Positions 515-14,778 of a stretch of DNA of 33,823 nucleotides are shown here, piece by piece. Source of the stretch: Sedimentisphaerales bacterium (GTDB lineage Bacteria > Planctomycetota > Phycisphaerae > Sedimentisphaerales > Anaerohalosphaeraceae); the NCBI GenBank assembly GCA_016935635.1, contig JAFGQP010000165.1:1-33823 (forward strand), written 5' to 3'. The notes beneath the pieces are model-generated. The model ran no database searches. It saw only the letters and a list, made by a program, of their open reading frames with translations, and was not told where the DNA came from. Both the position numbers and the translations under genes were made by a program. Positions within the stretch are counted from its first letter, which is position 1. Each line of letters starts with the position of its first letter.

Positions 515-866
515 GGGGGCGAAAGGCTTCGACCGGATAAGTTGACGGTCGGTTGGCGTGTCGAGGATAACGGTTGGCCTCGTTAAATATCCGTTAAAAA
601 ACTTAACTGGCAACTACCAGTACCAAATGGCTGCGTAAATTACGCAACCCGCATCGGTGGGTTTTCCCGTGAATCTGCCGTTTGCGACGACTAGCGGGAT
701 AGCTGAGGCGTCTTTTCGCAGCGCCAACGCGAAATCCTTTGCGAAATAGCGATGCGGCAAGCCTGTCGTTGGGCGTGCCGTTGGGCGAATCCTAAAATAA
801 CGACTACACATGTAGAAGACCGGCCTGAAATATCTCGGGACAGGGGTTCGAATCCCCTCGCCTCCA
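515..866 (+). ncRNA. ssrA: Transfer-messenger RNA (tmRNA), one-piece
   Basis: tmRNA rescues stalled ribosomes and tags the unfinished peptide. The 5' end (GGGGGCGAAAGGCUUCGACC from 515) and the 3' end with T-arm GGTTCGAATCC are diagnostic. Acceptor bases 515-521 pair with 859-865 (one G-U), with discriminator A866; CCA is not encoded. The tag frame starts at GGC 609 and reads GNYQYQMAA, stop TAA 636-638; the stop lies in a small hairpin (TGCGTA/TACGCA). The upstream TAACT resembles the pentamer before the resume codon of other tmRNAs. The tag ends MAA rather than the commoner LAA. The last 25 bases form the left attachment site of the adjoining island, so the gene remains intact after insertion. 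Confidence 0.95.
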
Positions 867-2312
867 TTTTTGAGTAGATTTTGAGGGTTGCGGTTTTTGA
901 TGATGAAAACCGCATATTTTTCTTTGAAACACTGGTTTTGACGCATTCTGAGAAATTGCTTGCTGTCCAGAATAGACTGTTTTATTTTCCTCCGGAACGT
1001 CATGCGCGGCTAAGTAATCGGCACTATTTTTTGTGCCGTTTTCTTGTGATGTCTTTTTCTGTTCAACACCTACTGCATTAACCGCAACATTATCGGTTCC
1101 AGTCTTTTTCTGTTCCTGGACATTCCCGCCAGTCAGATCAGGCAGAGTATCGACCGCTGCTGTCAGGCTTTCCCGGAAAGCATGGGAATAAACATTCATC
1201 GTCAACCGGATATCACTGTGCCGCAAGAGTTCCATAGCCGTTTTGGGATTCGTTCCGCTGGCGGCCAGCATGGAGGCATAAAAGACCCGGAAGCTGTGAA
1301 AATCAAAGACCCTGCCGCTGTCATCCTTTTCTGGAATGCCCGCAGCCTTCAAATCCTCACGCAGGACTCGGACTTCATGGGAACTGGCTGCCGTCTTGAA
1401 AGCAGGGCAGTCTGGGAGTTTACCCGCAAAGAAGGTTTTCAGGCGTTTTGCAAATTCCGGTTTCAATGGTATTACTGCGTCCTGTCGGTTCTTGGTGAAT
1501 TTGCCTGCCAGACGCACTACGTTGGCCGTAAAATCAAAATCACCCACGGTTAAAGCCCGTAGTTCGGCCGCCCTCAGCCCTGTCATAGCGGCGGTCTCAT
1601 AATGCATAGCCCGTTCCGTTCCGGTTATCCCTCTCCGGGTTTCGCCGCTGGCCGTTACCGCTAAAAGGGTCCGCATCTGTTCTGCGGTAATTGCCCGCCG
1701 CCGGCGTTTATCATCCTGGGCCGTATCGAGAAGGGCGATATGCTCTATGGGATTGGTATGAGCCTTGCCGTCCTGTTTCATCCACCGAAAGAAGGTTTTG
1801 AGAATGCCAATGTAGTGGTTGGCAGTCTTTCGGCTAATTTGTTTGGCTTGGACCTCATCATCGAGAAATCGCTGTATCCGGCTGGCCGATACGTCGGATA
1901 GGACCTTGAATCCACATCCGTCCAGCACGGTCGTAATCCGGGTATAGGCTTTCTGGCAATACTCTGCGGTGTTGCCCTTGTTTCCCAGATAGGTCTTGAA
2001 TGCGGTCAGATGTTCGGATAATCGGACTGCTGAGGCTGCCCGCTGCGGGGGGATAATCTGCCATGCGACCAGCTTGGTTACAATCCGCTGAGGCAGGCCG
2101 TCGATCCATGTCTGCATGTCCGGCGATGGTTCCTGGTGCCCGGCCTTGAGATTGATGAGAGTTTGGATTTTATCACCAAATTGGCGGGTCAGGTCTTTAT
2201 CGGCAAAGCCAGGGAAGCGGTGCCGCTGGCCATCAACATAGAAGTCCAAGCACCACTTTTTCGCCTTTTTGGTCTGTCCTGCCTCGGTATAGGTTTGTCG
2301 GTAAACCCTCAT
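804..2312 (-). CDS. int: Tyrosine site-specific recombinase (island integrase), C-terminus replaced by insertion
   Basis: It would catalyse integration and excision between ssrA and the circular island. 502 residues: an arm-binding N-terminal region (1-70), a SAM-like core-binding domain (about 95-195), and a catalytic domain (about 205-385) with Arg247 (TGLRAAEL), a Lys in the beta-hairpin (271 or 274), His339-x-x-Arg342 (HSFR), His365 (LLRHSD) and nucleophile Tyr375 (NVYSHA). A strong GGAGG lies before the ATG, which overlaps the XRE gene stop (ATGA). Residues 395-490 are a polar linker. Codons 482-490 are the attachment core, and the last 12 codons (CPEIFQAGLLHV) are antisense ssrA, so the present C-terminus is a product of integration. 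The native end is probably encoded at 13377-13571. Transcription runs into ssrA on its antisense strand. Confidence 0.93.
   Translation of the reverse strand: MRVYRQTYTEAGQTKKAKKWCLDFYVDGQRHRFPGFADKDLTRQFGDKIQTLINLKAGHQEPSPDMQTWIDGLPQRIVTKLVAWQIIPPQRAASAVRLSEHLTAFKTYLGNKGNTAEYCQKAYTRITTVLDGCGFKVLSDVSASRIQRFLDDEVQAKQISRKTANHYIGILKTFFRWMKQDGKAHTNPIEHIALLDTAQDDKRRRRAITAEQMRTLLAVTASGETRRGITGTERAMHYETAAMTGLRAAELRALTVGDFDFTANVVRLAGKFTKNRQDAVIPLKPEFAKRLKTFFAGKLPDCPAFKTAASSHEVRVLREDLKAAGIPEKDDSGRVFDFHSFRVFYASMLAASGTNPKTAMELLRHSDIRLTMNVYSHAFRESLTAAVDTLPDLTGGNVQEQKKTGTDNVAVNAVGVEQKKTSQENGTKNSADYLAAHDVPEENKTVYSGQQAISQNASKPVFQRKICGFHHQKPQPSKSTQKWRRGDSNPCPEIFQAGLLHV
842..869 (+). repeat. attL core, 28-bp direct repeat (copy 1)
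   Basis: Identical to 13571-13598. It contains the ssrA T-stem/loop, itself an inverted repeat (GGGGTTCGAATCCCC), which is the usual crossover region for tRNA/tmRNA-targeting integrases. On the minus strand it is also codons 482-490 of the integrase (KWRRGDSNP). Confidence 0.92.
1007..1023 (+). repeat. 17-bp repeat near left island end (copy 1)
   Basis: CGGCTAAGTAATCGGCA, identical and in the same orientation as 13493-13509. It lies inside the integrase gene about 138 bp from the attL core. It could be an arm-type integrase binding site. Both copies are in the same integrase frame (ADYLA), so an internal duplication of coding sequence is the alternative. Confidence 0.6.
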
Positions 2313-2545
2313 CGTTTACCTCCTTTTGTCTTGCGGAGTATCAGTCCTAAGGCATCTGCCAGCTTTTCAGTATTTTTGAAACTTGGCATTCGCTCTCCAG
2401 ACATGAATCGTGACATGACAGATTTGTTGATTTTAGCCTTTTGGCTAATCTCCTGCTGACTCATTCCGCTTGCGAGGACAGCCGCTTTTATGGTTTGATA
2501 CCAGTCTTGTTTTTCCGCATTGCTCATAATAGTAATATACCCCAT
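2309..2545 (-). CDS. XRE/Cro-type helix-turn-helix regulator
   Basis: Small DNA-binding protein of about 78 residues. The HTH is clear: MSQQEISQKAKINKSVMSRFMSGERMPSF, followed by KLADALGL, as in lambda-repressor-like domains. I chose the ATG at 2545 because it overlaps the stop of the upstream gene (TAATG) and so should be translationally coupled; a downstream ATG at 2527 is possible and an upstream TTG at 2569 less so. The gene overlaps the integrase start by 4 nt, so the two are co-translated. It probably controls the integration module, perhaps through the palindromes at 3099-3161. It has no sensor or protease domain. Confidence 0.85.
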   Translation of the reverse strand: MGYITIMSNAEKQDWYQTIKAAVLASGMSQQEISQKAKINKSVMSRFMSGERMPSFKNTEKLADALGLILRKTKGGKR

Positions 2546-2964
2546 TATTCTATGGTTGTCAATACGCAACTTGAAAGATTTTCAATGTTTTTTTTGGTTT
2601 CGACCAATTGGCTCAGGCAAAACTCAAGGGCTGATTCGTCCCCGCTTACGTCCTGGCCTTCTCCAAAGAGGTTTGGATGTTGGCGGATAATTCCATAAAT
2701 TATTCGACGTGTGAAAGGCTTCCCCCTTCGGGTTATTCCCAGTTCATTCAATTTCGCTGCGGTCCAAGCTGCTGATTTCCCGCACCGCCGACTTAGGCGA
2801 ATTGCCATAATGGTAAGCCTCTCAAAAGGGCTACTCGTGGCCCTATAGCCGAATGGTAATCGAGCACTCAGGCCAGGGCGCTCCGCTTCGACCTGGTCAA
2901 GCCCCAGTTCGATTGCAGCGTGACCATCAATAATATTTTCGGGTCCATTCTCAGGTTTTTTCAT
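2545..2964 (-). CDS. HTH protein resembling the linker/DNA-binding region of serine recombinases
   Basis: 139 residues from the ATG at 2964, chosen for its good Shine-Dalgarno sequence (AGGA, 6 nt spacing); an ATG at 2985 lies within the leader. The middle (RLPFGYRATSSPFERLTIMAIRLSRRCGKSAAWTAAKLNELGITRRGKPFTRRIIYGIIRQ; key motif AAKLNELGITRRGKPFT) resembles the segment after the catalytic domain of large serine recombinases, where a LN-x-x-GI-x-TRRGK-x-W motif leads into a helix-turn-helix. There is no catalytic serine domain, so it is not a recombinase by itself. It starts the operon with the XRE gene and integrase and may act as accessory factor or regulator. Function not known. Confidence 0.7.
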   Translation of the reverse strand: MKKPENGPENIIDGHAAIELGLDQVEAERPGLSARLPFGYRATSSPFERLTIMAIRLSRRCGKSAAWTAAKLNELGITRRGKPFTRRIIYGIIRQHPNLFGEGQDVSGDESALEFCLSQLVETKKNIENLSSCVLTTIE

Positions 2965-2985
2965 TCTTTTTCCTTTCTTTATCAA

Positions 2986-3205
2986 AGTTTCTTACCAAGT
3001 TGGCGACACCACGCCGCCGTTAGTTTTTAGTTGCTTTCGGTCGAGTAAGGCGTCGTACCCGACCAAGAAGACATCCCGCTTCGCACAGGGGGGATGGTAT
3101 TCTTAAGAATGTTATCATCCGTGAGCAATAGTAAACGGCTAAACAACTATCATATATGATAACTGTGATGTGGCTTTTGTCTTTTTGCTTATTCATATCT
3201 GATAA
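2986..3205. promoter_or_regulatory. Dyad-rich regulatory region upstream of the integration operon
   Basis: This gap holds two perfect palindromes: ATTCTTAAGAAT (3099-3110) and TATCATATATGATA (3148-3161). Related half-sites of the form ATATGATAACT, ATCTGATAACT and TTTGATAGCT recur near 3154-3164, 3197-3207 and 3229-3240, the last inside the neighbouring gene's 3' end. A further stem CATCCC/GGGATG spans 3072-3097. The set looks like an operator region, most simply for the island's XRE protein. I could not place a convincing -35/-10 pair. Confidence 0.5.
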
Positions 3206-3658
3206 CTATTCCGGTGTTTTTGTATTCAGATTTGATAGCTGGGATTTCCTTTTTCGGACAAACGGAGGGATTATTGCTTGTCGTTTTACATGCACAAAAT
3301 CCGGCTGTCCGTACAGCTTCCAGCGGTCGGGTAAACTCCACTTTGTCGGCTGTCGATGCAGACCACTGGAAGGTTCGGCAATGTCTAAAAATCCAAGGTC
3401 AACCAGTTCCGTCAGGCAGCGGCTAAAGGTAGCCTGCGACATTTTCAATCGCCTTGTTGCGTCTTCATAGGTAAACACGATTTCGCCGTTATTGACTATG
3501 ATTGCTTTACTATGTTTTCCCTGGCGGTCCTTGGGTTTATAGATTTTGCGGCGGCGGCAAAACTCCAAGAAGACCCTGAATGTATGCGGTGATTTTATGG
3601 CCTTGAATGCAGAGCTTTCTAAAAGGTCATTTTCAAGATAAACGCCAGCAGGGGGCAT
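3206..3658 (-). CDS. Winged-helix DNA-binding protein of unknown role
   Basis: 150 residues. The centre (IVFTYEDATRRLKMSQATFSRCLTELVDLGFLDIAEPSSG) is a typical winged helix: helix-turn-helix followed by a beta wing. The N-terminal half (SPHTFRVFLEFCRRRKIY) is a helical region often found in phage and plasmid replication-type wHTH proteins. The tail is basic (KRQAIIPPFVRKRKS). The start is 2 nt after the stop of the upstream CxxC gene, so the genes are translationally coupled. Possibly a replication or transcription factor of the island; I cannot tell which from sequence alone. Confidence 0.75.
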   Translation of the reverse strand: MPPAGVYLENDLLESSAFKAIKSPHTFRVFLEFCRRRKIYKPKDRQGKHSKAIIVNNGEIVFTYEDATRRLKMSQATFSRCLTELVDLGFLDIAEPSSGLHRQPTKWSLPDRWKLYGQPDFVHVKRQAIIPPFVRKRKSQLSNLNTKTPE

Positions 3659-3660
3659 AA

Positions 3661-3966
3661 TCAGTGCCTCCCAGTCGAGTTTGTCGATTCTTGGTCTGAA
3701 ATTTGAGCTTTATCGCCATTTTTCAGGCTTTTGAAAGGTCTATATAGCCAAAGTGGGCAAGAATACGCCACACAGGTTCGGATGCTGTCGCGTTCCCAGC
3801 CGCAACATTCTCCGCAAAATGAGAATATTGCTGCTGCCATGCTTTTGCCATTTTGAGCTTGGTCATATTTCTTGCGGAATGAAACAGGCATATCCTGTCT
3901 GCGTTTTTTAATTCGTTGATTTCGTCTTGAGTTCTCTTCCGCTGCGAGATAAGATAGATTTTGCAT
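3661..3966 (-). CDS. Small CxxC-motif protein (phage/island type)
   Basis: 101 residues from the ATG at 3966, chosen for its AAAGGA Shine-Dalgarno sequence with 8 nt spacing; an earlier ATG at 4005 would translate the leader itself. The signature is a compact cysteine motif: FCGECCGWERDSIRTCVAYSCPLWLYRP. The pattern C-x2-C-x2-W...C-x4-CPLW-x-YRP is one I know from many short phage and mobile-element proteins, presumably a metal-binding knuckle. The N-terminus is basic and helical (RRNQRIKKRRQDMP). It sits in an operon with the excisionase-like genes upstream and the winged-helix gene downstream. Function unknown. Confidence 0.75.
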   Translation of the reverse strand: MQNLSYLAAEENSRRNQRIKKRRQDMPVSFRKKYDQAQNGKSMAAAIFSFCGECCGWERDSIRTCVAYSCPLWLYRPFKSLKNGDKAQISDQESTNSTGRH

Positions 3967-4024
3967 TAGATTTTCCTTTCTGCTGGTCGCCGGGTGTTCC
4001 AGCACCGTAGGCGGCTTTTTTTAT

Positions 4025-4246
4025 TTAAGTATTTCGCGTGTTTGCTTTCCACTCCCATTGCCGCCGCGGCGGGCACCCGCAATTAACCCAGGCTTCGACC
4101 TCGGCGCGGCGGAGAAGGAGTTTTTTGCCGAACCGAATTTCGCTGGGTCCGATGCGGCCGGCAGCCTTTTGAACAAAATAAGTCGCCCGGCTGATCCCCA
4201 ACAGTTTGCATACGCTATTGACATCGATCAGCAGCGGATTATCCAT
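4025..4246 (-). CDS. AlpA/excisionase-family HTH protein 1
   Basis: 73 residues from the ATG at 4246, preceded by GGGGGAA at suitable spacing. LLIDVNSVCKLLGISRATYFVQKAAGRIGPSEIRFGKKLLLRRAEVEAWV is the standard MerR-like winged HTH of AlpA and HTH_17 proteins, which bend DNA as recombination directionality factors or activate integrase genes. It overlaps the end of a second such gene (4239-4430) by 8 nt. In this position it is the best candidate, together with that gene, for the excision factor of the island. A longer start at 4324 is unlikely because it would overlap most of the neighbour. Confidence 0.85.
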   Translation of the reverse strand: MDNPLLIDVNSVCKLLGISRATYFVQKAAGRIGPSEIRFGKKLLLRRAEVEAWVNCGCPPRRQWEWKANTRNT

Positions 4247-4430
4247 TGGTTCCCCCTTTTTCGGCCAGTCTGTCAAGGGCTGCTTGTACAGCAATGGGAT
4301 TAAACCGATATCGTCCCCCCACAATCAAATGCGGGATTTGGTTTTCAGCCGCTAACCGCCGCAGATATGCCTTTGGCAATTGCAGGCGTGCCGCTAACGC
4401 TTCGAGTGAAATGTAAGTTGTTTTTTCCAT
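4239..4430 (-). CDS. Excisionase-family HTH protein 2
   Basis: 63 residues from the ATG at 4430 (an in-frame TTG at 4439 is possible). YISLEALAARLQLPKAYLRRLAAENQIPHLIVGGRYRFNPIAVQAALDRLAE is a DNA-binding excisionase-type fold (HTH_17: LEALAARL, helix-turn-helix, then wing GGRYRF and helix). It is the first gene of a tightly packed run continuing with excisionase-like protein 1. A perfect dyad (4431-4452) directly precedes the start and overlaps the ribosome-binding region, suggesting autoregulation. The two tandem paralogous-looking proteins may split the roles of directionality factor and activator. Confidence 0.82.
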   Translation of the reverse strand: MEKTTYISLEALAARLQLPKAYLRRLAAENQIPHLIVGGRYRFNPIAVQAALDRLAEKGGTNG

Positions 4431-4452
4431 AAGGCCCAAAATATCAGGCCTT
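4431..4452. promoter_or_regulatory. Dyad next to the excisionase-like start codon
   Basis: AAGGCC-N10-GGCCTT, perfect 6-bp arms, ending one base before the ATG at 4430. The position over the ribosome binding site suggests an operator or an RNA hairpin that controls translation of the excisionase-like operon. Confidence 0.4.
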
Positions 4453-4505
4453 AGATGAGTGTCAAAACAATGGTCTGCGTGATACTAAAATGATACGATA
4501 GAACG

Positions 4506-4991
4506 TTATCTTTGGGGATATCTGGACGCGACTTCTTTTTCGCTGACAATGTGTGGGCTGTTTTTTGCAGCTTTTTCAAGACGATATGACTTTAATATAC
4601 CATCTTCAATATTGCGTTTTAATGTACCTCTTGAGACTTTATATCTCTCTACAGCAACCAACAGGGTTATAAGGTCGTTTGGTATTATGTTGTGCTTATT
4701 CTCCTGGGCTGCTTTTCTCCCTTCCTCAAGTGCGTTAAGAATAATCAAATTGCTGGGGTGTGTGCTGCCTGTATAGCTGCCGACGTATAGGACATAGCGG
4801 GCTATGAGCAGGTCGTTGCTACATCGGCTTGCTATAAGCAAAATGCGTTTCCAGTCCCTTGATACTGAGGCAAGCTCCCAGGCTTCGTTCAATTGCTCGA
4901 AGCTGCTTGTCCATTGCTCCGCTTCTGTGAACATCCCTGGATTGTCATTTACGAATTGGGCTGCTTCATTTAAGACTTTTTCGGTGTCCAT
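4506..4991 (-). CDS. Island protein of unknown function
   Basis: 161 residues, mainly alpha-helical and acidic in the N-terminal half (MDTEKVLNEAAQFVNDNPGMFTEAEQWTSSFEQLNEAWEL). The C-terminal third contains a possible HTH (NDLITLLVAVERYKVSRGTLKRNIEDGILKSYRLEKAAKNSPHIVSEKEV), similar in layout to excisionase-like domains with key words VSRGTLKRNI. The ATG at 4991 follows GAGG with almost no spacing, and a 2-codon frame (ATG GAC TGA, 5002-4994) sits just ahead, so initiation may be controlled. A long terminator-like hairpin (5003-5091) lies directly upstream. I do not recognise the family. Confidence 0.65.
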   Translation of the reverse strand: MDTEKVLNEAAQFVNDNPGMFTEAEQWTSSFEQLNEAWELASVSRDWKRILLIASRCSNDLLIARYVLYVGSYTGSTHPSNLIILNALEEGRKAAQENKHNIIPNDLITLLVAVERYKVSRGTLKRNIEDGILKSYRLEKAAKNSPHIVSEKEVASRYPQR

Positions 4992-5002
4992 CCTCAGTCC
5001 AT

Positions 5003-5091
5003 AAAAAAACCGGCTTCGGGGATGGTGTTGACCGGCTCTTGTGAAGCCGCTGGGCTTTACAGCTTACAGACACCATCGCCGAAACCGGCTT
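5003..5091 (-). terminator. Long hairpin with U-run; terminator or attenuator
   Basis: On the minus strand a 23-nt arm (5091-5069) pairs with 5029-5007 with one internal mismatch, one end mismatch and two G-U pairs; the 39-nt loop can form small inner stems (GGCT/AGCC). It is followed by seven T residues (5009-5003). It ends the transcript of gene 5194-5541 or attenuates gene 4506-4991, which starts only 12 nt further on. Confidence 0.7.
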
Positions 5092-5193
5092 ACGGATAAT
5101 TGCATTTTCAACAAGATTCGTCATGCCTTCATATATCGGCATGGTTGCGGAATTAGTCAAGACTTTTCTGAACATAGTGACCAGCCGAATTGG

Positions 5194-5541
5194 TCAGCAG
5201 CGCCGTTCCACCATCGGATACCACAAGTTTTCGATTAGTATCTCCGCGGCTTCCTCCAGGCTGTGACCTTCCTCCGGTTCGGGTCCCTGTTCGTCCCCCC
5301 TTACGTCCAGCAGCATCTTGATCTGTTTTGCTGGACTCATCCCGATCAGGCTGTGTGCCAGAAGCAGCAGGCTTTCCTGGTCGCTGCCCCACGTCCCCTT
5401 CAGTTCGTGGTTCTGAAGATACCACAGTATCAGTTGTGTCGGATACAGGTGGTTTGGATTTACTTGCTCGCTGACCCTTTCCAGCATCCGCTTGCACATC
5501 TGACACATCGGCAACTGGTTTTGTTTGATTGGTTCGGCCAT
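5194..5541 (-). CDS. Island protein of unknown function with N-terminal CxxC
   Basis: 115 residues starting at an ATG with GAGG 7-8 nt upstream. The N-terminus holds PMCQMCKRMLERV, a CxxC pair that could bind metal or be redox-active. The rest is helical (LYPTQLILWYLQNHELKGTWGSDQESLLLLAHSLIGMSPAKQIKMLL) and ends with an acidic helix (EEGHSLEEAAEILIENLW). No signal peptide or membrane segment. Its upstream region contains a 31-bp dyad (5622-5652) related to those upstream of hsdM, hinting at shared control. An overlapping, longer frame on the same strand (5153-5560) has low-complexity K/R/G/S/T composition and is not believed. Confidence 0.7.
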   Translation of the reverse strand: MAEPIKQNQLPMCQMCKRMLERVSEQVNPNHLYPTQLILWYLQNHELKGTWGSDQESLLLLAHSLIGMSPAKQIKMLLDVRGDEQGPEPEEGHSLEEAAEILIENLWYPMVERRC

Positions 5542-5597
5542 CTCTCTGCCTCTTTTTCAATTATACCACATTGCAGAATATGTTTTGATTATTTTCA

Positions 5598-5652
5598 GAT
5601 CACAGAAATGGACTCGGATTGTCCAGAGTGTGGACATTGGCCACTCTGTGGA
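5598..5652 (-). repeat. 31-bp dyad with conserved flank, copy A (inverted relative to copy B)
   Basis: The dyad 5622-5652 has the form TCCA-N23-TGGA. Read on the minus strand, its outer arms, spacing and about 22 bases of flank (5621-5600, CAATCC...TCCA) match 12039-12094 on the plus strand; the dyad centres differ in sequence. It lies 81 bp upstream of the gene starting at 5541 and beyond the last gene of the hsd operon. Confidence 0.6.
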
Positions 5653-5765
5653 CGATTCATATCCTCTAATTCATCTCTCAATCTTCTTTAGCTTCGCTCA
5701 GACATGGCGCACATATCAGATGTTGATAATATCCGGATGAGTCTGTCGTTTCGACGGAAAACCAA

Positions 5766-6065
5766 TCAATAGACGAGGCCGTTTGCCCATTCCTTGCCGG
5801 TCAATCGCTGAAGTTCTTTATAGGCGGGTTCGTTTGGGCTTCCGTATGTCTCGACAAAAATAACCTCTTTGCCGGTGGAATTCCCGCGGGGACTTACGAA
5901 AGCATACCGGTACAGAACGCCCGACGATGTATCCAGGACAAAGACATCTGAAAAGGTATTGCTGGTCACGATTTGAAACTTTCCATTTTCGCTCTGATTG
6001 CTGGCATTGCCCATCACCAGAACCGCAATCACCACCACAATTACACCGCACAAAAACTGCTTCAT
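5766..6065 (-). CDS. Small exported or membrane-anchored protein after hsdR
   Basis: 99 residues. The first 19 (MKQFLCGVIVVVIAVLVMG) form an uncleaved signal anchor or signal peptide; AAAGGG stands 8 nt before the ATG. The remainder is a short beta-rich domain (FQIVTSNTFSDVFVLDTSSGVLYRYAFVSPRGN), a pattern seen in single-blade or small periplasmic proteins. It lies 66 bp after hsdR in the same direction and is probably in the same transcript or just behind it. An exported protein is unexpected next to a cytoplasmic restriction complex, so it may be a passenger. No named family recognised. Confidence 0.65.
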   Translation of the reverse strand: MKQFLCGVIVVVIAVLVMGNASNQSENGKFQIVTSNTFSDVFVLDTSSGVLYRYAFVSPRGNSTGKEVIFVETYGSPNEPAYKELQRLTGKEWANGLVY

Positions 6066-6131
6066 TGTTCAGCCCTTTCAGTAAATGAGTGTTTTTTGAA
6101 TATGGCGATAGTGTATCTACTGCCGTGCTTA

Positions 6132-8528
6132 TCACGCCACGGCCTGCTGATACAGATACTTCTGGAAGCCGGAAAAGACCTTGCCGATTTCGTCGGGCCT
6201 TCCCAGGTCCGCCACAGCGTCCGCAATCGAATCGTGATACTTCAACCGCAATAGCGGCGTCAGTTTCTCCTGGTCCAGTTCCTCAACACCGACATTGACA
6301 TAGTGCGACAGGACAAAGTCGAGGAAGGCCTGCTGCTTATTGTTAAATTGCGAATGAATCACCATCTTGGCCTGCTCGGCCCGTTCCTCCCGGGTCAGCG
6401 GCGGCAAGGCATACGCCACATACGCCAGCACATCGAAAATATCACTCTTTTCCGCATCGATAATCTTCTGCATCTCCAATAGCTGTTCTTTCCCGAAGCC
6501 CTTATCCGCCAGTCCTTCCAGCAGTTTTCGCCGCGTATCCGGCACGCTCCACAAGGCCCGCAGTTCCGCCTCATTCCTGAAAAAGTCTGGCAGTTTCCCG
6601 AACAGCAATTCCATAAATTGCTGTGCCGACATTGGCGTCCTGTCCGGATGCCAAAAGCTCGTTACCATCATGTGCTGGATAAATCGCTCCTTGCCATCGG
6701 CCAGCTTGACCCTGGCGGGTTTCTTTTTCTTGCACACACAACGCAGCTTCCCGCAGACCGGACATGGCTCTTTCTCGCATTCGCACGGACTCTTACCGCA
6801 CACCGGGCACGGCTGCGGCGGGTTCTTCTCACAGACACAGGGACGGCAGCCGCATACCGAACAGGGTTTCGTTTCTTCCGGTTCGAGGGGCTCCCCATCC
6901 CATTCCGGGTCGCTGAAATGATGGTGGGCCTTGACGAAGTCGTAAATCGTGAAATAGTCCTTGCCGTCATACAGCCGCGTACCCCGTCCGATGATCTGCT
7001 TGAACTCGATAATATAGTTGATTGGCCGCATCAGGACGATATTGCGGATATTACGGGCATCCACGCCGGTTGCCAGTTTTTGCGAAGTCGTCAGGATAGT
7101 CGGAATCGTCTTCTCGTTATCCTGAAAATCGCGGAGATGCTGCTCTCCCAGCGCCCCGTCATTGGCCGTCACCCGCTGGCAGTAATTCGGGTCCGAACTG
7201 GCCTTCATCTGGTTAATCAGGTCCCGCACGGCAAGGGCATGGTCCTGCGTGGAACAGAATACCAGCGTCTTTTCATTGGGATTGATTTGCTCCATGAACA
7301 GCTTGACCCGGTGGGCTTCCCGTTCGCGGATTACGATAATCTTGTTGAAGTCGGGTTCCGTGTACCGTTTCCCGGCCTCGATTTCGCCTTCAATCAGCTT
7401 GTCATCGGGGGTATAGATGTATTCATCCAGCGTCGTGGAAATCTGCTTGACCTTGAACGGCGTAAGAAAACCGTCGTTAATCCCATCCTTGAGGGAATAG
7501 ATATAAACCGGTTCGCCAAAATAGCGGTAGGTATCCACATTGTCCCGGCGTTTGGGTGTAGCGGTCAGCCCCAACTGGACCGCGGGGGAAAAATAATCCA
7601 TGATATCCCGCCAGTTGCTTTCGTCATTGGCACCCCCGCGATGACATTCATCGATGACAATAAAGTCGAAAAAGTCCGGCGGGTACTCGCCAAAATAAGG
7701 TGACGGCTTCCCATCCCTGGGCGGCCCGCTCATAAACGTCTGAAAGATGGTGAAAAACAGGCTGCCATTGGTCGGGACCCGGCCCTTCCGGCGAATGTCC
7801 TCCGGTGAAATCCGTATCATCGCATCTTCCGGAAACGCAGAAAAGGCATTATACGCCTGATTGGCCAGGATATTGCGGTCGGCCAGGAACAGAATCCGCG
7901 GACGGCGGGTGGGCTGGCCGCTCAGGTTCCATCGGCTATAAAACAGCTTCCAGGCAATCTGAAACGCAATAAACGTTTTGCCCGTTCCCGTGGCCAGGGT
8001 CAGCAGGATACGCGGCCGGTTCTCGGCAATCGCTGCCATCACCCGTTCGATGGCGATATCCTGATAATAGCGGCTCGGATGCGAACCGCCTTTATCCTCA
8101 AACGGCACAGCCGCAAAGCGGTCCCGCCATGCGTTTTCAGTGGCAAAGACGATATTCCAAAGTTCCTGCGGTCCCGGAAACGCCGCCCGTTCCCCCTCCT
8201 TGCCGGTCTGCATGTCAATTCCATAGATACCCTGTCCGTTCGTCGAATAGGCAAACCGGACCTGCATCTTCCCCGCATAGTTCTTGGCCTGGGCCACACC
8301 TTCGGTCAGGGCCTCATCCCATGCCTTGGCCTCCACAACGGCCAGCTTGGTATTGCGGTATTCCAGGACATAATCCGCCGTCAGGCCTTTGCCGCGTCGC
8401 CCATAGCCTTCGATACGGCCCGGGGTAATCGGATATTCCCGCCGGATGCGGCTGCCATCGACAACGCCCCATCCCGCCGCGGCAAGGGCGGGGTCAATCT
8501 GTTCGGCTCTGGTTTCGGCTTCATTCAT
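6132..8528 (-). CDS. hsdR: Type I restriction enzyme, R (nuclease/translocase) subunit
   Basis: The motor and nuclease of the HsdR2M2S complex: it pulls unmodified foreign DNA past the complex and cuts it. 798 residues. PD-(D/E)XK nuclease near the N-terminus: Asp52 and Glu66-Ala-Lys68 (ADYVLEY..VVEAKA). Superfamily 2 helicase motor: Walker A ATGTGKT (179-185), DECH 293-296, TATP 322-325, motif VI QIIGRGTR (511-518). C-terminal HsdR-type domain about 610-798 (EcoEI-R family style). Between motor and C-terminal domain lies an unusual Cys-rich stretch (556-600) with three units of the form C-x-VCGK-x2-C-x-C. Starts 16 nt after the preceding gene. All main motifs intact, so likely active. Confidence 0.95.
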   Translation of the reverse strand: MNEAETRAEQIDPALAAAGWGVVDGSRIRREYPITPGRIEGYGRRGKGLTADYVLEYRNTKLAVVEAKAWDEALTEGVAQAKNYAGKMQVRFAYSTNGQGIYGIDMQTGKEGERAAFPGPQELWNIVFATENAWRDRFAAVPFEDKGGSHPSRYYQDIAIERVMAAIAENRPRILLTLATGTGKTFIAFQIAWKLFYSRWNLSGQPTRRPRILFLADRNILANQAYNAFSAFPEDAMIRISPEDIRRKGRVPTNGSLFFTIFQTFMSGPPRDGKPSPYFGEYPPDFFDFIVIDECHRGGANDESNWRDIMDYFSPAVQLGLTATPKRRDNVDTYRYFGEPVYIYSLKDGINDGFLTPFKVKQISTTLDEYIYTPDDKLIEGEIEAGKRYTEPDFNKIIVIREREAHRVKLFMEQINPNEKTLVFCSTQDHALAVRDLINQMKASSDPNYCQRVTANDGALGEQHLRDFQDNEKTIPTILTTSQKLATGVDARNIRNIVLMRPINYIIEFKQIIGRGTRLYDGKDYFTIYDFVKAHHHFSDPEWDGEPLEPEETKPCSVCGCRPCVCEKNPPQPCPVCGKSPCECEKEPCPVCGKLRCVCKKKKPARVKLADGKERFIQHMMVTSFWHPDRTPMSAQQFMELLFGKLPDFFRNEAELRALWSVPDTRRKLLEGLADKGFGKEQLLEMQKIIDAEKSDIFDVLAYVAYALPPLTREERAEQAKMVIHSQFNNKQQAFLDFVLSHYVNVGVEELDQEKLTPLLRLKYHDSIADAVADLGRPDEIGKVFSGFQKYLYQQAVA

Positions 8529-8544
8529 GGCGCGTCCTCGATTC

Positions 8545-9186
8545 TCATGTCAGGAGTTTTCTGTTGCCAACCTTCCAAACTAAAAAGTCCATTAGGCGAT
8601 TGGGGTGACATTTTTTTAGTTCTTCATCACGAGCTTTAAGGTTATTTAAGATGAGCACTATCTGTTCATTTTTTGCCCATTCTTCGTAACTGTCGTGCAC
8701 TCTATCAAGGAAATCAACAAACCAACCTATTCGATTCTCTATGTTATTTGAACTGTCCAGGGCTTTTTCCCCAAAGAATGCGAGCACATGTTTGTCGTAA
8801 ATTGGACTGCTTTCAAGATGCATAGCAACAAGTTTTGAAACAAATGAAAAGGGTATCGCGTAATCGCCTTTTTTGCGTTTAATTTTGCTGAGTTCAGTGA
8901 GAATCTGACAAAAGACCGGTTTTCCATAAATGACGATTTTTTCTTCGAACAGTATTTCGAAGTATCTCTTTTTGAATTCGTCAGTCAGTCCTCCAGTATT
9001 GAGAGCGTAATAGTTTGTGAAAAGGGTACAAAATCGGTTGCGAGCAAAAGAGCTGGAATCAGGCAACAATGCTTTCAGCTCTAAGTAGGGGCAAAAATCG
9101 GAGTGAAACATCCACTTCTCGGCCTTATTTAATGCCTCGATATGCTTTGATTCAAGTCGCATGATTTGATTTTCGGCTTTGTTCAT
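8545..9186 (-). CDS. Unknown protein encoded inside the type I R-M operon
   Basis: 213 residues, no signal peptide or membrane segment, rich in aromatic and charged residues. Recognisable blocks are LFTNYYALNTGGLTDEFKKRYFEILF, a basic turn (KIKRKKGDY), PFSFVSKLVAMHL and PIYDKHVLAFFG. I have the impression of a small helical family whose members sit beside restriction genes (the F-SF-SKL...PIYD pattern), but I know no experimental function and give no name. It lies 9 nt after hsdS and 16 nt before hsdR, so it is co-expressed with the enzyme. Roles to consider: restriction control, an extra effector, or a specificity partner. The start is uncertain (ATG 9186 or 9162; neither has a good Shine-Dalgarno sequence). 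Confidence 0.85.
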   Translation of the reverse strand: MNKAENQIMRLESKHIEALNKAEKWMFHSDFCPYLELKALLPDSSSFARNRFCTLFTNYYALNTGGLTDEFKKRYFEILFEEKIVIYGKPVFCQILTELSKIKRKKGDYAIPFSFVSKLVAMHLESSPIYDKHVLAFFGEKALDSSNNIENRIGWFVDFLDRVHDSYEEWAKNEQIVLILNNLKARDEELKKCHPNRLMDFLVWKVGNRKLLT

Positions 9187-9195
9187 AGAGGAATC

Positions 9196-10392
9196 TTATA
9201 GCTCCCCATTAAATGCCTGATGCAGCAGTGATTTTTTCAATTCCTCCAGCGTCGCAATTTTTTGCCGATAAATCAATTCGAGATGTTGGGTTTCGGCGCG
9301 CAGTGCCTCAAATTTCGCAACAATGCGTTTCTGGTCTTCAAGCTTTGGCGGAAGCGCCACCGTCAAGGCACTCCATTTTGATTTATTGATGATAGGCAAA
9401 GTAGCCTGCCCAGAACTCAACAACACACGCCGCTGAAAGCTCTCGGTGAGCATCTGATAATAAACAAACTTGTGTGATACGCCGTCGAACGGCGTGAGTG
9501 CGTTTGTTTGCTGGTTTGTCGTTATGTCGCGGTCGCAGTAGCCACATTTTCCAATCGTAGCTCCGATGCAGACCATCAGTACCGAGCCGGCGGTGATTTT
9601 GCGCGCTTCTGCCAACCCCTTGTCGCTAAGTCCGTCATTCTCGTAATCCAGCGAGCCGTCTGTGTTGAAGTCTGCCGGCTTTACGAAAGGAATGAAGTCG
9701 CCATAGTTTGCTCTGTCTGAAGTTTTCGGTGTCGAACCGGTCTGCGTTGTTCCAATCTGCTCAAGTCTCTTCTCCACCCACCCCTCACCTTTTTGGGTGA
9801 AGACGGTATTGAGATAGCTGTCAAACAAGTCCCGGGCATTTTGGAGATTTTTTTCCGCATTCGCCTTGGCCGTGGCAATCCCCTCAAATGCCGCATCGAG
9901 AATCCCCACAATCCGCCGCTGCTCAGGGAGAGGAGGGATTGGAACCTCGATGTTTCGTACCAGAATCATGTTAAGCCCGCGTCGATCATTTCCACTATCA
10001 CAAGTAATTGTGCGAAGTTCTTGGTAGCGTCCATGTAGGTTTAAATACAGATATTCGGGTAGCAAGTAAGCGTGGTCTCTCGGACAAATGCTAACCAATG
10101 ATTGATTGCATGTAGCCTGTGTACGTAATAGTGCAACCGTACCTCGTGTTTTGCCTTGACCATTCAATGCTATCATTACTGAATTCAATGGAAGAAGTTT
10201 CGCATTTGAATTCCTCATTCCTTCTTCTGTAATACGTCCTTCACAGTCATATATCTTATGTTGATGAATATCGCCCGACACCAACCATTTAATGTTACCA
10301 CCAAAATACTCAGGTTTTGACCTGCTTGGTGTTCCCCCTGTCATTAGGTCACATACATCCCCAATCCTTTTGGTTGTCCACCCCTTTTTCAC
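9196..10392 (-). CDS. hsdS: Type I restriction-modification specificity subunit
   Basis: It reads the bipartite target sequence and holds the two HsdM subunits. 398 residues in the usual order: target recognition domain 1 (1-150; GDVCDLMTGGTPSRSKPEYFGG), conserved helical spacer 1 (about 155-200; PPLPEQRRIVGILDAAFE), recognition domain 2 (207-345; TTQTGSTPKTSDRANYG) and spacer 2 (346-398; EDQKRIVAKFEALRAETQHLE). The two half-repeats are complete, so the protein should read two half-sites. It starts with GTG overlapping the hsdM stop (GTGA). The two recognition domains are clearly different from each other, so an asymmetric target is expected. Confidence 0.95.
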   Translation of the reverse strand: MKKGWTTKRIGDVCDLMTGGTPSRSKPEYFGGNIKWLVSGDIHQHKIYDCEGRITEEGMRNSNAKLLPLNSVMIALNGQGKTRGTVALLRTQATCNQSLVSICPRDHAYLLPEYLYLNLHGRYQELRTITCDSGNDRRGLNMILVRNIEVPIPPLPEQRRIVGILDAAFEGIATAKANAEKNLQNARDLFDSYLNTVFTQKGEGWVEKRLEQIGTTQTGSTPKTSDRANYGDFIPFVKPADFNTDGSLDYENDGLSDKGLAEARKITAGSVLMVCIGATIGKCGYCDRDITTNQQTNALTPFDGVSHKFVYYQMLTESFQRRVLLSSGQATLPIINKSKWSALTVALPPKLEDQKRIVAKFEALRAETQHLELIYRQKIATLEELKKSLLHQAFNGEL

Positions 10393-11840
10393 AGCAGCCC
10401 CCGAATCTTTTCCAGGACCTTGGCGCTTTCAGCATCCAGAGCAGCAATCTCCTTCATAATCTCTTTGGGACTGCGGTGCTTGACTTCCTCGCCGCCGTTG
10501 GGATTTTTGACCGACAGATCAAAGGTGTCCGGGTCGATGTCCTTGGCGTCGATGCTCCAGCTTTTGGGGGAGTCGGCCCTGGTTTTTTGCAGCTTGACAA
10601 ACTCCGCCAGGTCATCATCATTGAGCGGATTGGTCTTGCCCAGGTTGCGTCCCGGGTCAAGCTGATAGTACCAGATGTTACGGGTCTTGCTGCCTTTTTC
10701 AAAGAACAGCACCACGGTCTTGACTCCTGCCCCCAGGAATGTGCCGCCCGGACAATCCAGGACTGTATGCAGATTGCAGCTTTCCAGAAGCAGCTTCCGC
10801 AGACTGACAGAGGCATTGTCGGTATTGGACAGGAAGGTATTCTTGATGACCACACCCGCCCGGCCTCCGGCCTTGAGCATCTTGATAAAGTGCTGGAGGA
10901 ATAAAAACGCCGTCTCACCCGTCCGGATGGGGAAATTCTGCTGCACTTCCTTGCGTTCCTTGCCGCCGAAGGGAGGATTGGCAAGGATGACCTCAAAGCG
11001 GTCCTTGTCCTGAATGTCGGCCAGATTTTCAGACAGCGTATTGGTATGCAGGATGTTGGGGGCCTCGATACCGTGCAGAATCATATTCATAATGGCGATG
11101 ACATACGCCAGCGACTTCTTTTCCTTACCGTAGAAGGTGCGGGTCTGGAGTGTCGTCAGGTCTTTGGTGGTCAGCTTCCCCTTGGCCTTGAGGTACTCGA
11201 AGGCTTCGCATAAAAAGCCCGCCGAACCGACTGCCCCGTCATAGATGCGTTCACCGATTTTGGGCTGAACCACCTGAACGATGGCACGAATTAAGGGACG
11301 CGGGGTGTAATACTCGCCTCCATTCCGGCCGGCGTTGCCCATGTTTTTTATCTTGGCTTCGTACAGGTGCGATAGCTCATGTTTTTCGGTCTGTGAACGA
11401 AACCGGAGATCGTCGATATGGTCGATAATCTCCCGCAGATTATAGCCGCTGGAAATCTTGTTCTTGATCTCGCCGAAAATCTCACCGATTTTATATTCGA
11501 TGGTGTTGGAGCTGCTGGCCTTCTCCTTGAACTTGTGCAGATAGGGGAACAGCTTCTGATTGACAAAATCCCGCAGGTCGTCGCCGGTCATGGCGTTACG
11601 GTCCAGCTTGCCGTCCTTGTCCTTGGGGGCCGCCCAGGTATCCCAGCGGTAGGGTTTGTCGAGGATATAGGTGTATTTTTTGCCGTTGAGTGCGGCTTCG
11701 TCGGCCCGGTCCTGTTCCAGCCCGTCGAGGTACTTCAGAAACAGCAGCCATGAGGTCTGCTCGGTATAATCCAGTTCAGTTGTACATCCCGCCTCTTTCC
11801 ATAGGATGTCATCGATGTTTTTGAACGCTTGCTCAAACAT
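10389..11840 (-). CDS. hsdM: Type I restriction-modification DNA methyltransferase subunit
   Basis: N6-adenine methyltransferase that protects host sites and is part of the restriction complex. 483 residues: N-terminal helical HsdM_N domain (1-130), then the class gamma catalytic domain with SAM motif I as YDGAVGSAGFL (from Asp201) and catalytic motif IV NPPF (288-291). The C-terminus (IMKEIAALDAESAKVLEKI) is a coiled helix that would pack on HsdS. First gene of the hsd operon; AGG lies 5-6 nt before the ATG. It follows a long non-coding leader with dyads that may control expression, as expected for a newly entering restriction system that must methylate first. Confidence 0.95.
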   Translation of the reverse strand: MFEQAFKNIDDILWKEAGCTTELDYTEQTSWLLFLKYLDGLEQDRADEAALNGKKYTYILDKPYRWDTWAAPKDKDGKLDRNAMTGDDLRDFVNQKLFPYLHKFKEKASSSNTIEYKIGEIFGEIKNKISSGYNLREIIDHIDDLRFRSQTEKHELSHLYEAKIKNMGNAGRNGGEYYTPRPLIRAIVQVVQPKIGERIYDGAVGSAGFLCEAFEYLKAKGKLTTKDLTTLQTRTFYGKEKKSLAYVIAIMNMILHGIEAPNILHTNTLSENLADIQDKDRFEVILANPPFGGKERKEVQQNFPIRTGETAFLFLQHFIKMLKAGGRAGVVIKNTFLSNTDNASVSLRKLLLESCNLHTVLDCPGGTFLGAGVKTVVLFFEKGSKTRNIWYYQLDPGRNLGKTNPLNDDDLAEFVKLQKTRADSPKSWSIDAKDIDPDTFDLSVKNPNGGEEVKHRSPKEIMKEIAALDAESAKVLEKIRGLL

Positions 11841-12038
11841 AGTGGCCTTTTCTTATCGCATCCGTAACGCGTTTGTAAGCAATAAAATCAAGATGCCTCC
11901 TTGAAACCTATTTTCAGCGGGAACACCGGAAACAACCGACTCCCGAGGAAAATATTGTAGCTTCAATCTTCCAACAGGGCAAGCAAGAAAACCCCCTCAA
12001 GATACTATCGATACCGCAGCAGATAGAAGACAAGAAAA

Positions 12039-12094
12039 GTCCACAGAGTCCGGTTACAGGACTCTCTGGACAATCCAACTCCACTTATGTTGGG
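12039..12094 (+). repeat. 31-bp dyad with conserved flank, copy B
   Basis: 12040-12070 is TCCA-N23-TGGA with 12-nt arms that differ at one base. It shares GTCCACAGAGT, a 14-nt spacer and CTCTGGACAATCC with the minus strand of 5598-5652; the match continues weakly to about 12091. It lies 200 bp upstream of the hsdM start. Confidence 0.6.
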
Positions 12095-12115
12095 TGATGT
12101 ATAAGACTCGATTTG

Positions 12116-12146
12116 TCCAATATAGTGTTTTCAACACTACTCTGGA
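12116..12146 (+). repeat. Third 31-bp dyad
   Basis: Again TCCA-N23-TGGA and exactly 31 bp, with inner arms AGTGTT/AACACT around a 3-nt centre. Its right end (CTCTGGA) equals that of copy B; the rest differs. Centre-to-centre distance to copy B is 76 bp. Confidence 0.5.
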
Positions 12147-12515
12147 ATATACGTATCCATAATGTCTGCATATATAAGAACAATGCTATCGAAAATTTTT
12201 ATGGGTATCTTTGGGCCGGGGTCCGTACCTTTCAAAGTATTGCTTACGACTTTTTCACAAACAACACATAAAAGGTCTTAAATAGATGGAGTAGTGCCAT
12301 TGGCCCTTTATTGGACCATACGCATCGTCAATAGAGCATAAATCTCAAGCGTCGGGAACGCCGGTTCTATAGGTCAGCTAATGACTGACACCCGACCCAT
12401 AATGTCCTGTTTATTAAAAATCAGTATTTCCCGGAAAGAGGTAAGGGGAGTCCCAGCGGCAAAGCCGGTGGAGGGTGTGGTAAAGATTTTCCGGCCTTGG
12501 GGCCCCCCGATTTTT

Positions 12516-12779
12516 TTAATGATGTCTGGAAAGTACCTGCTCTGCCTGTGCTGCTGTGATTCGGTCGGGGTGATACCCTGCTGCTTCCAGCGTCCTGATC
12601 TCGGCACTGTACCTGGCTATCAATGCCGACAGATGCGGACTGTCTTCGGGCTGTTCCGGCTGTCCTGCCTGGCTCTCGGCTTTCCGCTGCCTGTACCGCC
12701 GCATATAGGCCGCCCAACATCTGGAACACATCCCGGCTCTGACGGCTGGCTCTCGTTGACATTCCTTACATGGCTTCAT
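12516..12779 (-). CDS. Small zinc-ribbon-like protein
   Basis: 87 residues. CKECQREPAVRAGMCSRCWAAYMRRYRQR gives two CxxC pairs about 12 residues apart, a treble-clef or ribbon-like metal site followed by a basic helix, as in many short phage and island proteins that bind nucleic acid. The C-terminal part (LSALIARYSAEIRTLEAAGYHPDRITAAQAEQVL) is helical. It has no good Shine-Dalgarno sequence before the ATG at 12779, so expression level is uncertain. It follows a strong terminator (12812-12849) and so must have its own promoter in the short gap, if expressed. Confidence 0.6.
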   Translation of the reverse strand: MKPCKECQREPAVRAGMCSRCWAAYMRRYRQRKAESQAGQPEQPEDSPHLSALIARYSAEIRTLEAAGYHPDRITAAQAEQVLSRHH

Positions 12780-12811
12780 TCGGGTATCGTATCGGCTTTA
12801 CTGGCTGATGA

Positions 12812-12849
12812 CAAAAAAAGAAAGCCGCCCGATGTTCTGGACGGCTTCC
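12812..12849 (-). terminator. Rho-independent terminator after gene 12923-13348
   Basis: Minus strand: arm GAAGCCGTCC pairs with GGGCGGCTTTC (one G-U, one bulge) around an 8-nt loop and is followed by TTTCTTTTTTTG. In the circular form it would end the reconstituted integrase operon. Confidence 0.8.
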
Positions 12850-12922
12850 TGGTTAGGGTTCTGTTTACCCCTTGAAATAGCCTGTTTATTGGCCTTTTTG
12901 GGGCTTTCTCCGCTGGACCCTA

Positions 12923-13348
12923 TCAGCCTACTACCTGGAGTGTGTCCGCCCCTGGAATGGGCTGGAATTGGCCATTTTCGACCTGTTCAAGGGCAACCTG
13001 CTGCCGGTGTTGGTATTCTGCCAACTCGATACCGCTGATAATGCCGTTCCAGAAGTATATCTCTTTCAGGACATCGGCTGGCGGTTCCGCATTGCCCTTG
13101 TCCACATTGATTGCTTCCGCCTGGATGATTTCCCTCCGGACAATTTCGCCGACTTCATCCTGTCGCAAGGCCAGCTTCATCAGGCCTGCCACTAATGCCG
13201 CTTCCTTCTGTGAAAGAGTCTGTATGCGGTCGATGAGTCCGGAAATAAAAAGATTGCTGTGATGCGGCTCGTCGGCCATAAATTCCCTCGTGGTAATCAT
13301 GCGGGTCTTTTCAAATTCGCAGTAGGTTGTTGTTTCGGTCTGGTTCAT
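12923..13348 (-). CDS. Island protein of unknown function near right end
   Basis: 141 residues, preceded by AAAGGAG about 10 nt before the ATG. The protein is helical and acidic (SGLIDRIQTLSQKEAALVAGLMKLALRQDEVGEIVRREIIQAEA), without signal peptide or membrane segment; the last part is rich in Gln and Glu. It starts 28 bp after the stop of the split integrase tail (13377) and is followed by a clear terminator. In the integrated state nothing but attR lies upstream on its strand; in the circle it would be behind the integrase. That arrangement suggests a role tied to the excised form, but this is inference. Family not recognised. Confidence 0.7.
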   Translation of the reverse strand: MNQTETTTYCEFEKTRMITTREFMADEPHHSNLFISGLIDRIQTLSQKEAALVAGLMKLALRQDEVGEIVRREIIQAEAINVDKGNAEPPADVLKEIYFWNGIISGIELAEYQHRQQVALEQVENGQFQPIPGADTLQVVG

Positions 13349-13376
13349 GGTTCAATTTCTCCTTTCAAAACTATGG

Positions 13377-13571
13377 TTATTTATCGGCGCAGACTGTCCG
13401 CACCAATGCGATGATTGTTTGCCTGACATGCTCAGGCAGGGTAGGCCATGACGCGATGATATGCCCCAATTCGGGGAATTTCGGCAGTAAATCGGCTAAG
13501 TAATCGGCAGAGGGATTCGATTGAATATCTGTAAGTGCTTGTGTTTCCTGCTGGTTATGGCAATCCGACAA
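13377..13571 (-). pseudogene. Detached C-terminal segment of the integrase
   Basis: 64 codons that continue the integrase frame out of the 28-bp core. After the core-encoded ...GDSNP the frame reads LSDCHNQQETQALTDIQSNP and later a well-ordered helix with key words LLPKFPELGHIIASWPTLPEHVRQTIIALVRT, stop TAA at 13377. The composition looks like genuine protein. In the present arrangement its only starts are a TTG at 13571 inside the core or later codons, so it is probably not made unless GAGG in the core serves as a ribosome site. Joining it to integrase codons 1-490 by excision gives a 554-residue protein. A short HTH-like or oligomerisation role is possible; no function is known to me. Confidence 0.75.
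13493..13509 (+). repeat. 17-bp repeat near right island end (copy 2)
   Basis: Identical and in the same orientation as 1007-1023, about 61 bp from the attR core. A partial further copy (AGTAAATCGG) abuts it on the left (13486-13495), giving a tandem AGTAA(A)TCGGC arrangement typical of arm-type sites. Confidence 0.6.
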
Positions 13572-13598
13572 GGGGTTCGAATCCCCTCGCCTCCATTT
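13571..13598 (+). repeat. attR core, 28-bp direct repeat (copy 2)
   Basis: Identical to 842-869. It carries only the T-arm and acceptor 3' strand of ssrA; no tmRNA body precedes it, so it is the duplicated partial copy left by integration. Confidence 0.92.
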
Positions 13599-13923
13599 AT
13601 TTGCAGGATAGTGTTATACACAGAGTATGGCAGAGAAAAGGGATGGTCCTCATCAGGGAGGGGTACGACCTGTTGTGAGAGGCTAATTGTAGATTGACAA
13701 TTCATGAAAAATCCATTTTTCTAGTTGCAACTCTGTGTTTGTCTTTTTGAAAGTCAATATTTGTCAAATGAAGATTTCGAAGAAAACATCATCAATATTC
13801 TTGATGTCAACTTTTGTAACCCTCCTGTTATTGGGTGCGATTCTCTAATCCTTTTTCTGAGCGTAGAACAACGCTACATTTAATATCGACTTTCTCAATA
13901 GCCCCGATGTCCTTAGTTTCTCA
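13599..13923. other. Chromosomal region right of the island
   Basis: Presumably the sequence that followed ssrA before insertion. It contains one short hydrophobic frame (13768-13848) and a small stem AGCGT/ACGCT near 13859-13875; nothing else convincing. Confidence 0.5.
13768..13848 (+). CDS. Possible 26-residue hydrophobic peptide
   Basis: ATG to TAA frame encoding MKISKKTSSIFLMSTFVTLL followed by LLGAIL: a basic start, then one hydrophobic segment, like a signal peptide or a tiny membrane peptide. No clear ribosome binding site. It could be the broken start of an exported-protein gene or a chance frame. Confidence 0.25.
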   Translation: MKISKKTSSIFLMSTFVTLLLLGAIL

Positions 13924-14778
13924 TTAACGACAGACCCTGAACCCAAAGCCGTAGTACGTGGAATCCGGCGCAAAACCAAACCAGAATGAAACCCTGGTGG
14001 AGTCGCTGCTGTCGTACCATGCGCCGCCGCGGAGGATGCGTTGGCTTCCAATGACAGAACTGGTCCACTCCCAGACATTCCCGGACATGTCCGACACGCC
14101 GTAACCATAAGTGCCAAATGTTCCGACCGGGGTTGTGCCGTAAGGATGCGAGGAATTAATAAAGTTTGCGATACTGGTATTGATCGTGGTGCCGCAGCCA
14201 TGTGTATAGGCGCCGTTGAAATCCGCCATGGCCTGCCATTCCCCCTCGGTCGGCAACCGCCAGCCGTAAAAGTCGGCAAAAGCAGTGGCCCCATACCAAC
14301 TGACATACGTTACAGGGTGATTCTCAAAACCCGGATCCACGGTAAAGGTGCTGCCTGTCCAGTTAATGCGTGACGCCCCGCCGCTGGTGGCTCCATTGAA
14401 GGTATAACCGCCCCCTGGAAGATTACAATAGTGTTGTCCGGAATAAGGGCCGCTTATACCTGCAACATAGTTGCCGCTGACGGTGATCTCGCCGGCTGCC
14501 AGTGCGGCGTTAAGATACTGAGTAAACTGGGCATTGGTTGTTTCATACTTGCTCATATAGCCGTAAAAGCCACCCTGTCCTGAAACACCGGGATCATTGA
14601 TTTGTTGTGTCCACGCGATGTCCGGCTCCTGGACCCCATTGACCAGCCACTCAGACGCTAGCATCGCCATATCTGCAAGGTCTACACGACAATCCCCGTT
14701 CAAATCCGCTGAAGGACATGCAGCGAAACAACTCAGGCTAAAACCGCTTATAAAGAGAAGGGCAATCAAAGTTTTCAT
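13924..14778 (-). CDS. Exported dockerin-like / FGE-sulfatase-fold protein
   Basis: 284 residues. Signal peptide (1-19, ending CFA), then one dockerin-like calcium segment (ADLNGDCRVDLADMAMLASEWL, about 23-45), a mark of Phycisphaerae exported proteins. From about 50 to the end is a formylglycine-generating-enzyme (SUMF1) fold: GYMSKYETTNAQF, HPVTYVSWYGATAFADFYGWRLPTEGEWQ, MSGNVWEWTSS, RILRGGAWYDSS and the terminal GFRVCR. The segment that carries the two active-site cysteines in true FGE (after RGGAW) reads YDSSDSTRVSFW and has none, so it probably does not make formylglycine and serves as a binding or structural domain. Only one dockerin repeat is seen. Good PilS-like or sulfatase neighbours are absent here. 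Confidence 0.88.
   Translation of the reverse strand: MKTLIALLFISGFSLSCFAACPSADLNGDCRVDLADMAMLASEWLVNGVQEPDIAWTQQINDPGVSGQGGFYGYMSKYETTNAQFTQYLNAALAAGEITVSGNYVAGISGPYSGQHYCNLPGGGYTFNGATSGGASRINWTGSTFTVDPGFENHPVTYVSWYGATAFADFYGWRLPTEGEWQAMADFNGAYTHGCGTTINTSIANFINSSHPYGTTPVGTFGTYGYGVSDMSGNVWEWTSSVIGSQRILRGGAWYDSSDSTRVSFWFGFAPDSTYYGFGFRVCR

Follow-up and report, generated by a model that had tools for sequence, protein, structure and literature searches.

In archaeal SSV-type (suicidal) integrases (SSV1, pTN3, pT26-2), attP lies in the integrase gene, which is split on integration, commonly at a tRNA target. The gene is divided into N- and C-terminal fragments with the catalytic domain in the C-terminal one, and the truncated forms are inactive in vitro. 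A 2021 review describes self-splitting (SSV-type) integrases as exclusive to archaea (PMC8371274), and no report of a bacterial attP inside its own integrase was found in the open-access literature. In the integration-dependent immunity of mycobacteriophages (BPs and relatives), attP is in the repressor gene (PMC4557955, PMC8092301); here too the attachment site is within one of the element's own genes and the two states encode different C-termini, the lost piece typically being an ssrA-like degradation tag. In Vibrio Aux3, an integrase lacking its C-terminal helices because of an IS insertion did not rescue excision (PMC7721734). The locus described below is an ssrA-integrated island from a planctomycete whose integrase gene is cut by its own attachment site.

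Island geometry and the integrase gene

The window is the whole stretch of DNA that was analysed, 33,823 nucleotides from a Sedimentisphaerales bacterium. It contains a 12.7-kb island (842-13598) integrated in ssrA and flanked by exact 28-bp cores (Table 1). The 3' end of ssrA is rebuilt by the island, and the locus has the features of an ssrA-integrated genomic island: the RNA gene is restored at one end and direct repeats are found at both. The cargo at 6132-11840 on the minus strand resembles a type I restriction-modification set, the translations having been judged by eye; an HsdR-like gene also adjoins the tail of one relative (L071).

The island encodes a member of the tyrosine recombinase family (PF00589, E 7e-17) in which the catalytic R-K-H-R-H-Y set is complete by alignment (R247, K274, H339, R342, H365 and Y375). 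The integrase ORF reads through the core (KWRRGDSNP) into ssrA and stops after 12 host codons. When the island is joined as a circle, the integrase and the short ORF at the far core (the tail) are in frame across the core, giving a protein of 554 aa, against 502 aa in the integrated state, that ends in a conserved two-helix module. As this join is in frame, the tail belongs to the integrase gene as its 3' part and is not a separate gene downstream; the main point thus differs from that of the original prediction, which was the gene order. The chromosomal ORF keeps all of the catalytic residues together with the N-terminal domain. From the sequence, then, integrating strips a conserved tail from the integrase and excising restores it. 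The attP is in the integrase and not in a repressor, and the HTH gene (2309-2524) is wholly inside the island.

Table 1. Features of the island and its target in the window.
Feature	Position	Strand	Basis
ssrA (tmRNA), host integration target	515..866	+	ARAGORN
Integrase ORF, chromosomal form, 502 aa; last 12 residues from host ssrA	804..2312	-	ORF and PF00589
att core, integrase side, 28 bp, within integrase ORF and ssrA 3' end	842..869	.	exact repeat
Terminator-like hairpin for ssrA, island-supplied, within integrase coding sequence	889..914	+	terminator prediction
Putative P-arm integrase site, 17-bp repeat, in integrase linker codons	1007..1023	-	repeat search
HTH_3 regulator ORF, likely start ATG 2524; TGA overlaps integrase ATG	2309..2569	-	ORF and profile
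Promoter-like TTGACA-17-TATATT before HTH-integrase	2534..2562	-	consensus match only
HsdR	6132-8528	-	translation by eye
HsdS	9196-10392	-	translation by eye
HsdM	10389-11840	-	translation by eye
Strong intrinsic terminator after gene 12923-13348	12819..12850	-	
Gene 12923-13348, 141 aa; 28 bp past tail stop; own AGGAGA ribosome-binding site	12923..13348	-	
Tail ORF, 3' end of integrase gene, starts at far core	13377..13571	-	ORF and in-frame join
Putative P'-arm integrase site, identical 17-mer, in tail codons	13493..13509	-	repeat search
att core, far (tail) end, 28 bp	13571..13598	.	exact repeat

Most related elements have short direct repeats common to both sides of the core, often in tandem with a 12-bp period (for example ACTGTACCGGAAACTGTACCGGA, ATGGTTGCCGGAATGGTTGCCGGT). 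The repeats on both core sides, including the 17-mer of the window, are putative arm-type integrase sites within coding sequence.

IMG/VR was searched with the integrase family profile. Three contigs (L162, L173 and L155) carry a single unbroken ORF comprising the catalytic domain, a linker, a tRNA-like core (encoding VGARTRNLRF, VGLEPTEN and VAQLDRASVF, respectively) and the tail motif. There was no whole tRNA at any of these three cores, and attP therefore appears to lie inside the gene in nature; judged by their sequence, the cores are tRNA-derived. A single-protein scan of IMG/VR with the window integrase gave no match, the exact attP junction of the window island was not found there, and collections of plasmid and phage records held no match for the integrase or the tail consensus.

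In an AlphaFold model of the natural full-length protein from L162, the N-terminal part is a strand-strand-strand-helix domain and the catalytic domain comes next. Residues 421-535 are then disordered (pLDDT about 30), and the protein closes with two folded helices at 537-569 (pLDDT 86-89). The window tail, modelled alone, forms a hairpin as in L162. The models thus place attP in a disordered linker ahead of a folded tail. No relative of the tail was found in the PDB by sequence or by fold; the best PDB sequence match of the integrase is 6emy, the Int protein of Tn1549.

Conservation of the tail in Planctomycetota

The 64-aa tail was searched against 392 genomes of the phylum Planctomycetota at a loose cut-off (E<=1), and matches were obtained in 172 of them. 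Many lie on the same contig and strand as an integrase of the family, at upstream distances that range from several kb to tens of kb. Eighteen integrase-tail pairs were taken from these matches. Wherever an exact core repeat was present the tail fuses in frame (16/16), and each fused protein has a motif of the type xxIVxAWPxLPExxRxAIxALV at its C-terminus or shortly before it. The core of L068 is imperfect but its frame is consistent; in L066 a stop precedes the core.

A second set was assembled from family integrases picked without regard to tails, with an RNA-gene repeat within reach. The motif model came from the tail-chosen set and not from this one. The motif is found in frame beyond the far core in 15 of the 16 motif-bearing elements (L108, L113, L120, L123, L129, L136, L138, L210, L231, L235, L251, L255, L273, L308 and L320, the last also integrated in ssrA). 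L132, a twin of L108 with a frameshift, has the motif out of frame. The tail of L112 is divergent but in frame, L134 has no clear motif, and in L124 the motif is absent. Motif matches in the first integrase-chosen set numbered 11 on the integrase strand and none on the other. Overall, the frame agrees with that of the integrase in 31 of 32 motif-bearing cases.

Among the 80 best relatives from the genome collection, all but one (‘uncultured bacterium’) have record titles that name Planctomycetota. An integrase ORF overlaps an RNA gene at 57/80 and 35/58 of the family loci. Since such overlap is common in the family, a special switch acting on ssrA, as was originally envisaged, is unlikely. In five loci (L108, L132, L155, L234 and L235) the integrase overlaps a tRNA in sense, the 5' part of the tRNA being the core, and the core is still spanned. 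In L123, at about 9394-10600, a tail closes a 390-aa frame with an integrase match upstream; a tandem or remnant element, with its integrase fused to the tail of the next element, is the probable explanation.

Not every member of the family has a split tail. One tail type is common to L112, where it is split, and to L021 and L030, where it is contiguous with the integrase and no att repeat was found. Short tail-less integrases of ~415-420 aa that end before the RNA gene occur in L005, L008, L009, L086, L088, L089 and L142, and these offer a ready-made set for comparison. Another tail-less element, L303 (4464-11911), also has a short integrase; its core falls outside that gene, and 12-bp repeats (AAGGCAGAGCAG) are found close to each of the two cores. 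The existence of tail-less members (L005, L008, L009 and L303) indicates that the tail is dispensable for some integration.

The right-end gene and rival explanations

The gene order predicted for the circle holds at all coordinates: on the minus strand, the integrase is followed by the tail, 28 bp, gene 12923-13348 and a strong terminator (12850-12819; 12-bp stem, -20.4 kcal/mol, z -4.8, with a T-run). This geometry, with its short gap and closing terminator, is what would be expected if the main purpose of the arrangement were an expression switch, in which excision rebuilds an integrase-tail-gene operon and production of the right-end gene is confined to the circle. No sigma-70-like promoter was found upstream of 13348 (minus strand, 13349-14000), although the scan covered the sigma-70 type only, and there was no convincing minus-strand terminator before the core, the one candidate being a weak 6-bp stem at 1562-1544. 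Further support comes from L112 (G027:C24:23600-43500), where a Rep_trans replication initiator (PF02486, 1.2e-14) comes directly after the tail, its start overlapping the tail stop as ATGA. Owing to this overlap, excision in L112 could couple the integrase to replication, and for some elements an operon rebuilt in this way is credible; the arrangement suggests that the replication genes of L112 are expressed from the circle. However, of 32 related elements only 18 have a co-oriented gene next to the tail, which is near chance, albeit with crude gene calls in that region, and gene 12923-13348 is almost without homologues and carries a ribosome-binding site of its own. It has one clear homologue in the order (40%, E 3.6e-18), about 1.4 kb from the att core of L303; as the integrase of L303 is short and its core is outside the gene, this element shows no linkage between tail and gene. 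Matches of the right-end gene to a capsid protein (phrog_2006, Phi29 MCP) were weak and short, and this identity was rejected. The operon reading is therefore possible but unproven: its geometry is right, yet it is weakly conserved and not general, and as the main purpose of the arrangement it is unlikely. What stands of the proposed switch in attachment site position is that the encoded products differ by state and that excision would bring gene 12923-13348, with its closing terminator, downstream of the integrase. The most conserved output of the putative switch, however, is the integrase's own C-terminus and not the right-end gene. The original reading is thus partly supported, and gives way to one that is both more general and better supported, in which the integrase itself is split.

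The remaining alternatives concern the tail. It might act as a degradation tag, as in the BPs repressors, so that the circle form of Int is short-lived and the chromosomal form stable. Such logic is known where attP is in a repressor gene (PMC4557955), but the conserved part of the tail is a folded hairpin, and its last residues are not ssrA-like: they vary among elements (CADK in the window; RGL, MKT and others elsewhere) with no -AA ending. A tag is accordingly quite improbable. Less probable still is a tail that is a small gene in its own right, perhaps for an excision helper, and is translated alone at attR. Its product would be small and helical, and a possible start with a Shine-Dalgarno-like site precedes 10 of 32 tails; against this, the attR tails have no start codon or ribosome-binding site in common, their frame matches that of the integrase in all motif-bearing cases but one, and the unintegrated contigs carry one fused ORF. 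Given the want of a common start, the simplest reading is that the tail is expressed in the circle as part of a fusion. It is also conceivable that the overlap is passive, with attP merely near the 3' end of the integrase gene and the frame open by chance, as long open frames are a feature of high-GC genomes and the core is outside the ORF in some family members. The motif is kept in frame in elements that have diverged and that use different tRNA targets, which makes this a very remote prospect, as does the count of 13 in frame out of 14 (made before L308 and L320 were added), for which the binomial probability is 6e-6.

Proposed mechanism and comparison with known systems

The observations are best accommodated by splitting of the integrase gene. 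It is quite probable that attP in the 3' part of the gene causes it to be split on integration, that the full gene exists in the circle only, and that the tail tunes recombination. In this scheme, attP (the core and both putative arms) occupies codons for the predicted linker between the catalytic domain and the terminal two-helix module. The sequence shows that integration at the 3' end of ssrA cuts the gene: the module is stranded at attR, where no start signal recurs consistently, and the chromosomal gene is left with a whole catalytic domain and an end of a few host-encoded residues. Full-length Int may perform or favour integration, and the tail-less chromosomal Int may be less active or changed in direction, which would stabilise the integrated state until excision; excision might then proceed through tail-less Int and a helper, or through full-length Int supplied in trans. 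As a secondary effect, transcription of the circle from the HTH-integrase promoter might run on past the tail into the next gene (12923-13348 in this island). The role of the tail is likely to be regulatory rather than catalytically essential, because the integrases of tail-less subfamilies (L005, L008, L009 and L303) end before the core. The chromosomal Int could, on the other hand, be fully active.

The choice between integration and excision is central in phage and island biology, and is usually credited to separate helper proteins. The present locus raises the possibility that the crossover itself sets a direction signal within the integrase gene. More tentatively, there may be a phylum-wide bacterial class in which the hairpin-bearing Int of the circle integrates and the tail-less chromosomal Int is excision-only or silent. 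Such a class would carry its own direction switch, which in some elements would further tie replication or accessory genes to the excised state. If this is so, self-splitting integrases extend to bacteria, where they retain the catalytic domain. It would also account for the tRNA-antisense C-termini of planctomycete integrases and for orphan tail ORFs found where islands end, and the tail would be an easy marker for locating the far end of such islands.

With Islander/TIGER-type ssrA and tRNA islands the locus has in common integration at the end of an RNA gene and direct-repeat borders, but here the integrase ORF spans the crossover site. Like the heterobivalent integrases (lambda Int; the Tn1549/Tn916 type), the protein has predicted N-terminal arm-binding and catalytic domains and core-flanking repeats; it differs in an extra disordered linker that encodes attP and in an extra C-terminal helical hairpin. 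The Vibrio Aux3 integrase that lacks its C-terminal helices offers an analogue for the putative effect of losing the tail. As in the SSV-type integrases, attP lies within the integrase ORF; integration does not, however, part the catalytic domain from the N-terminal part, with which it remains whole, only the C-terminal module is lost, and the host is bacterial. In BPs-type immunity the cut gene is the repressor, whereas here the integrase is cut and the lost piece is a predicted folded module. The present case therefore has logic in common with both the SSV-type integrases and BPs-type immunity, and fits the definition of neither.
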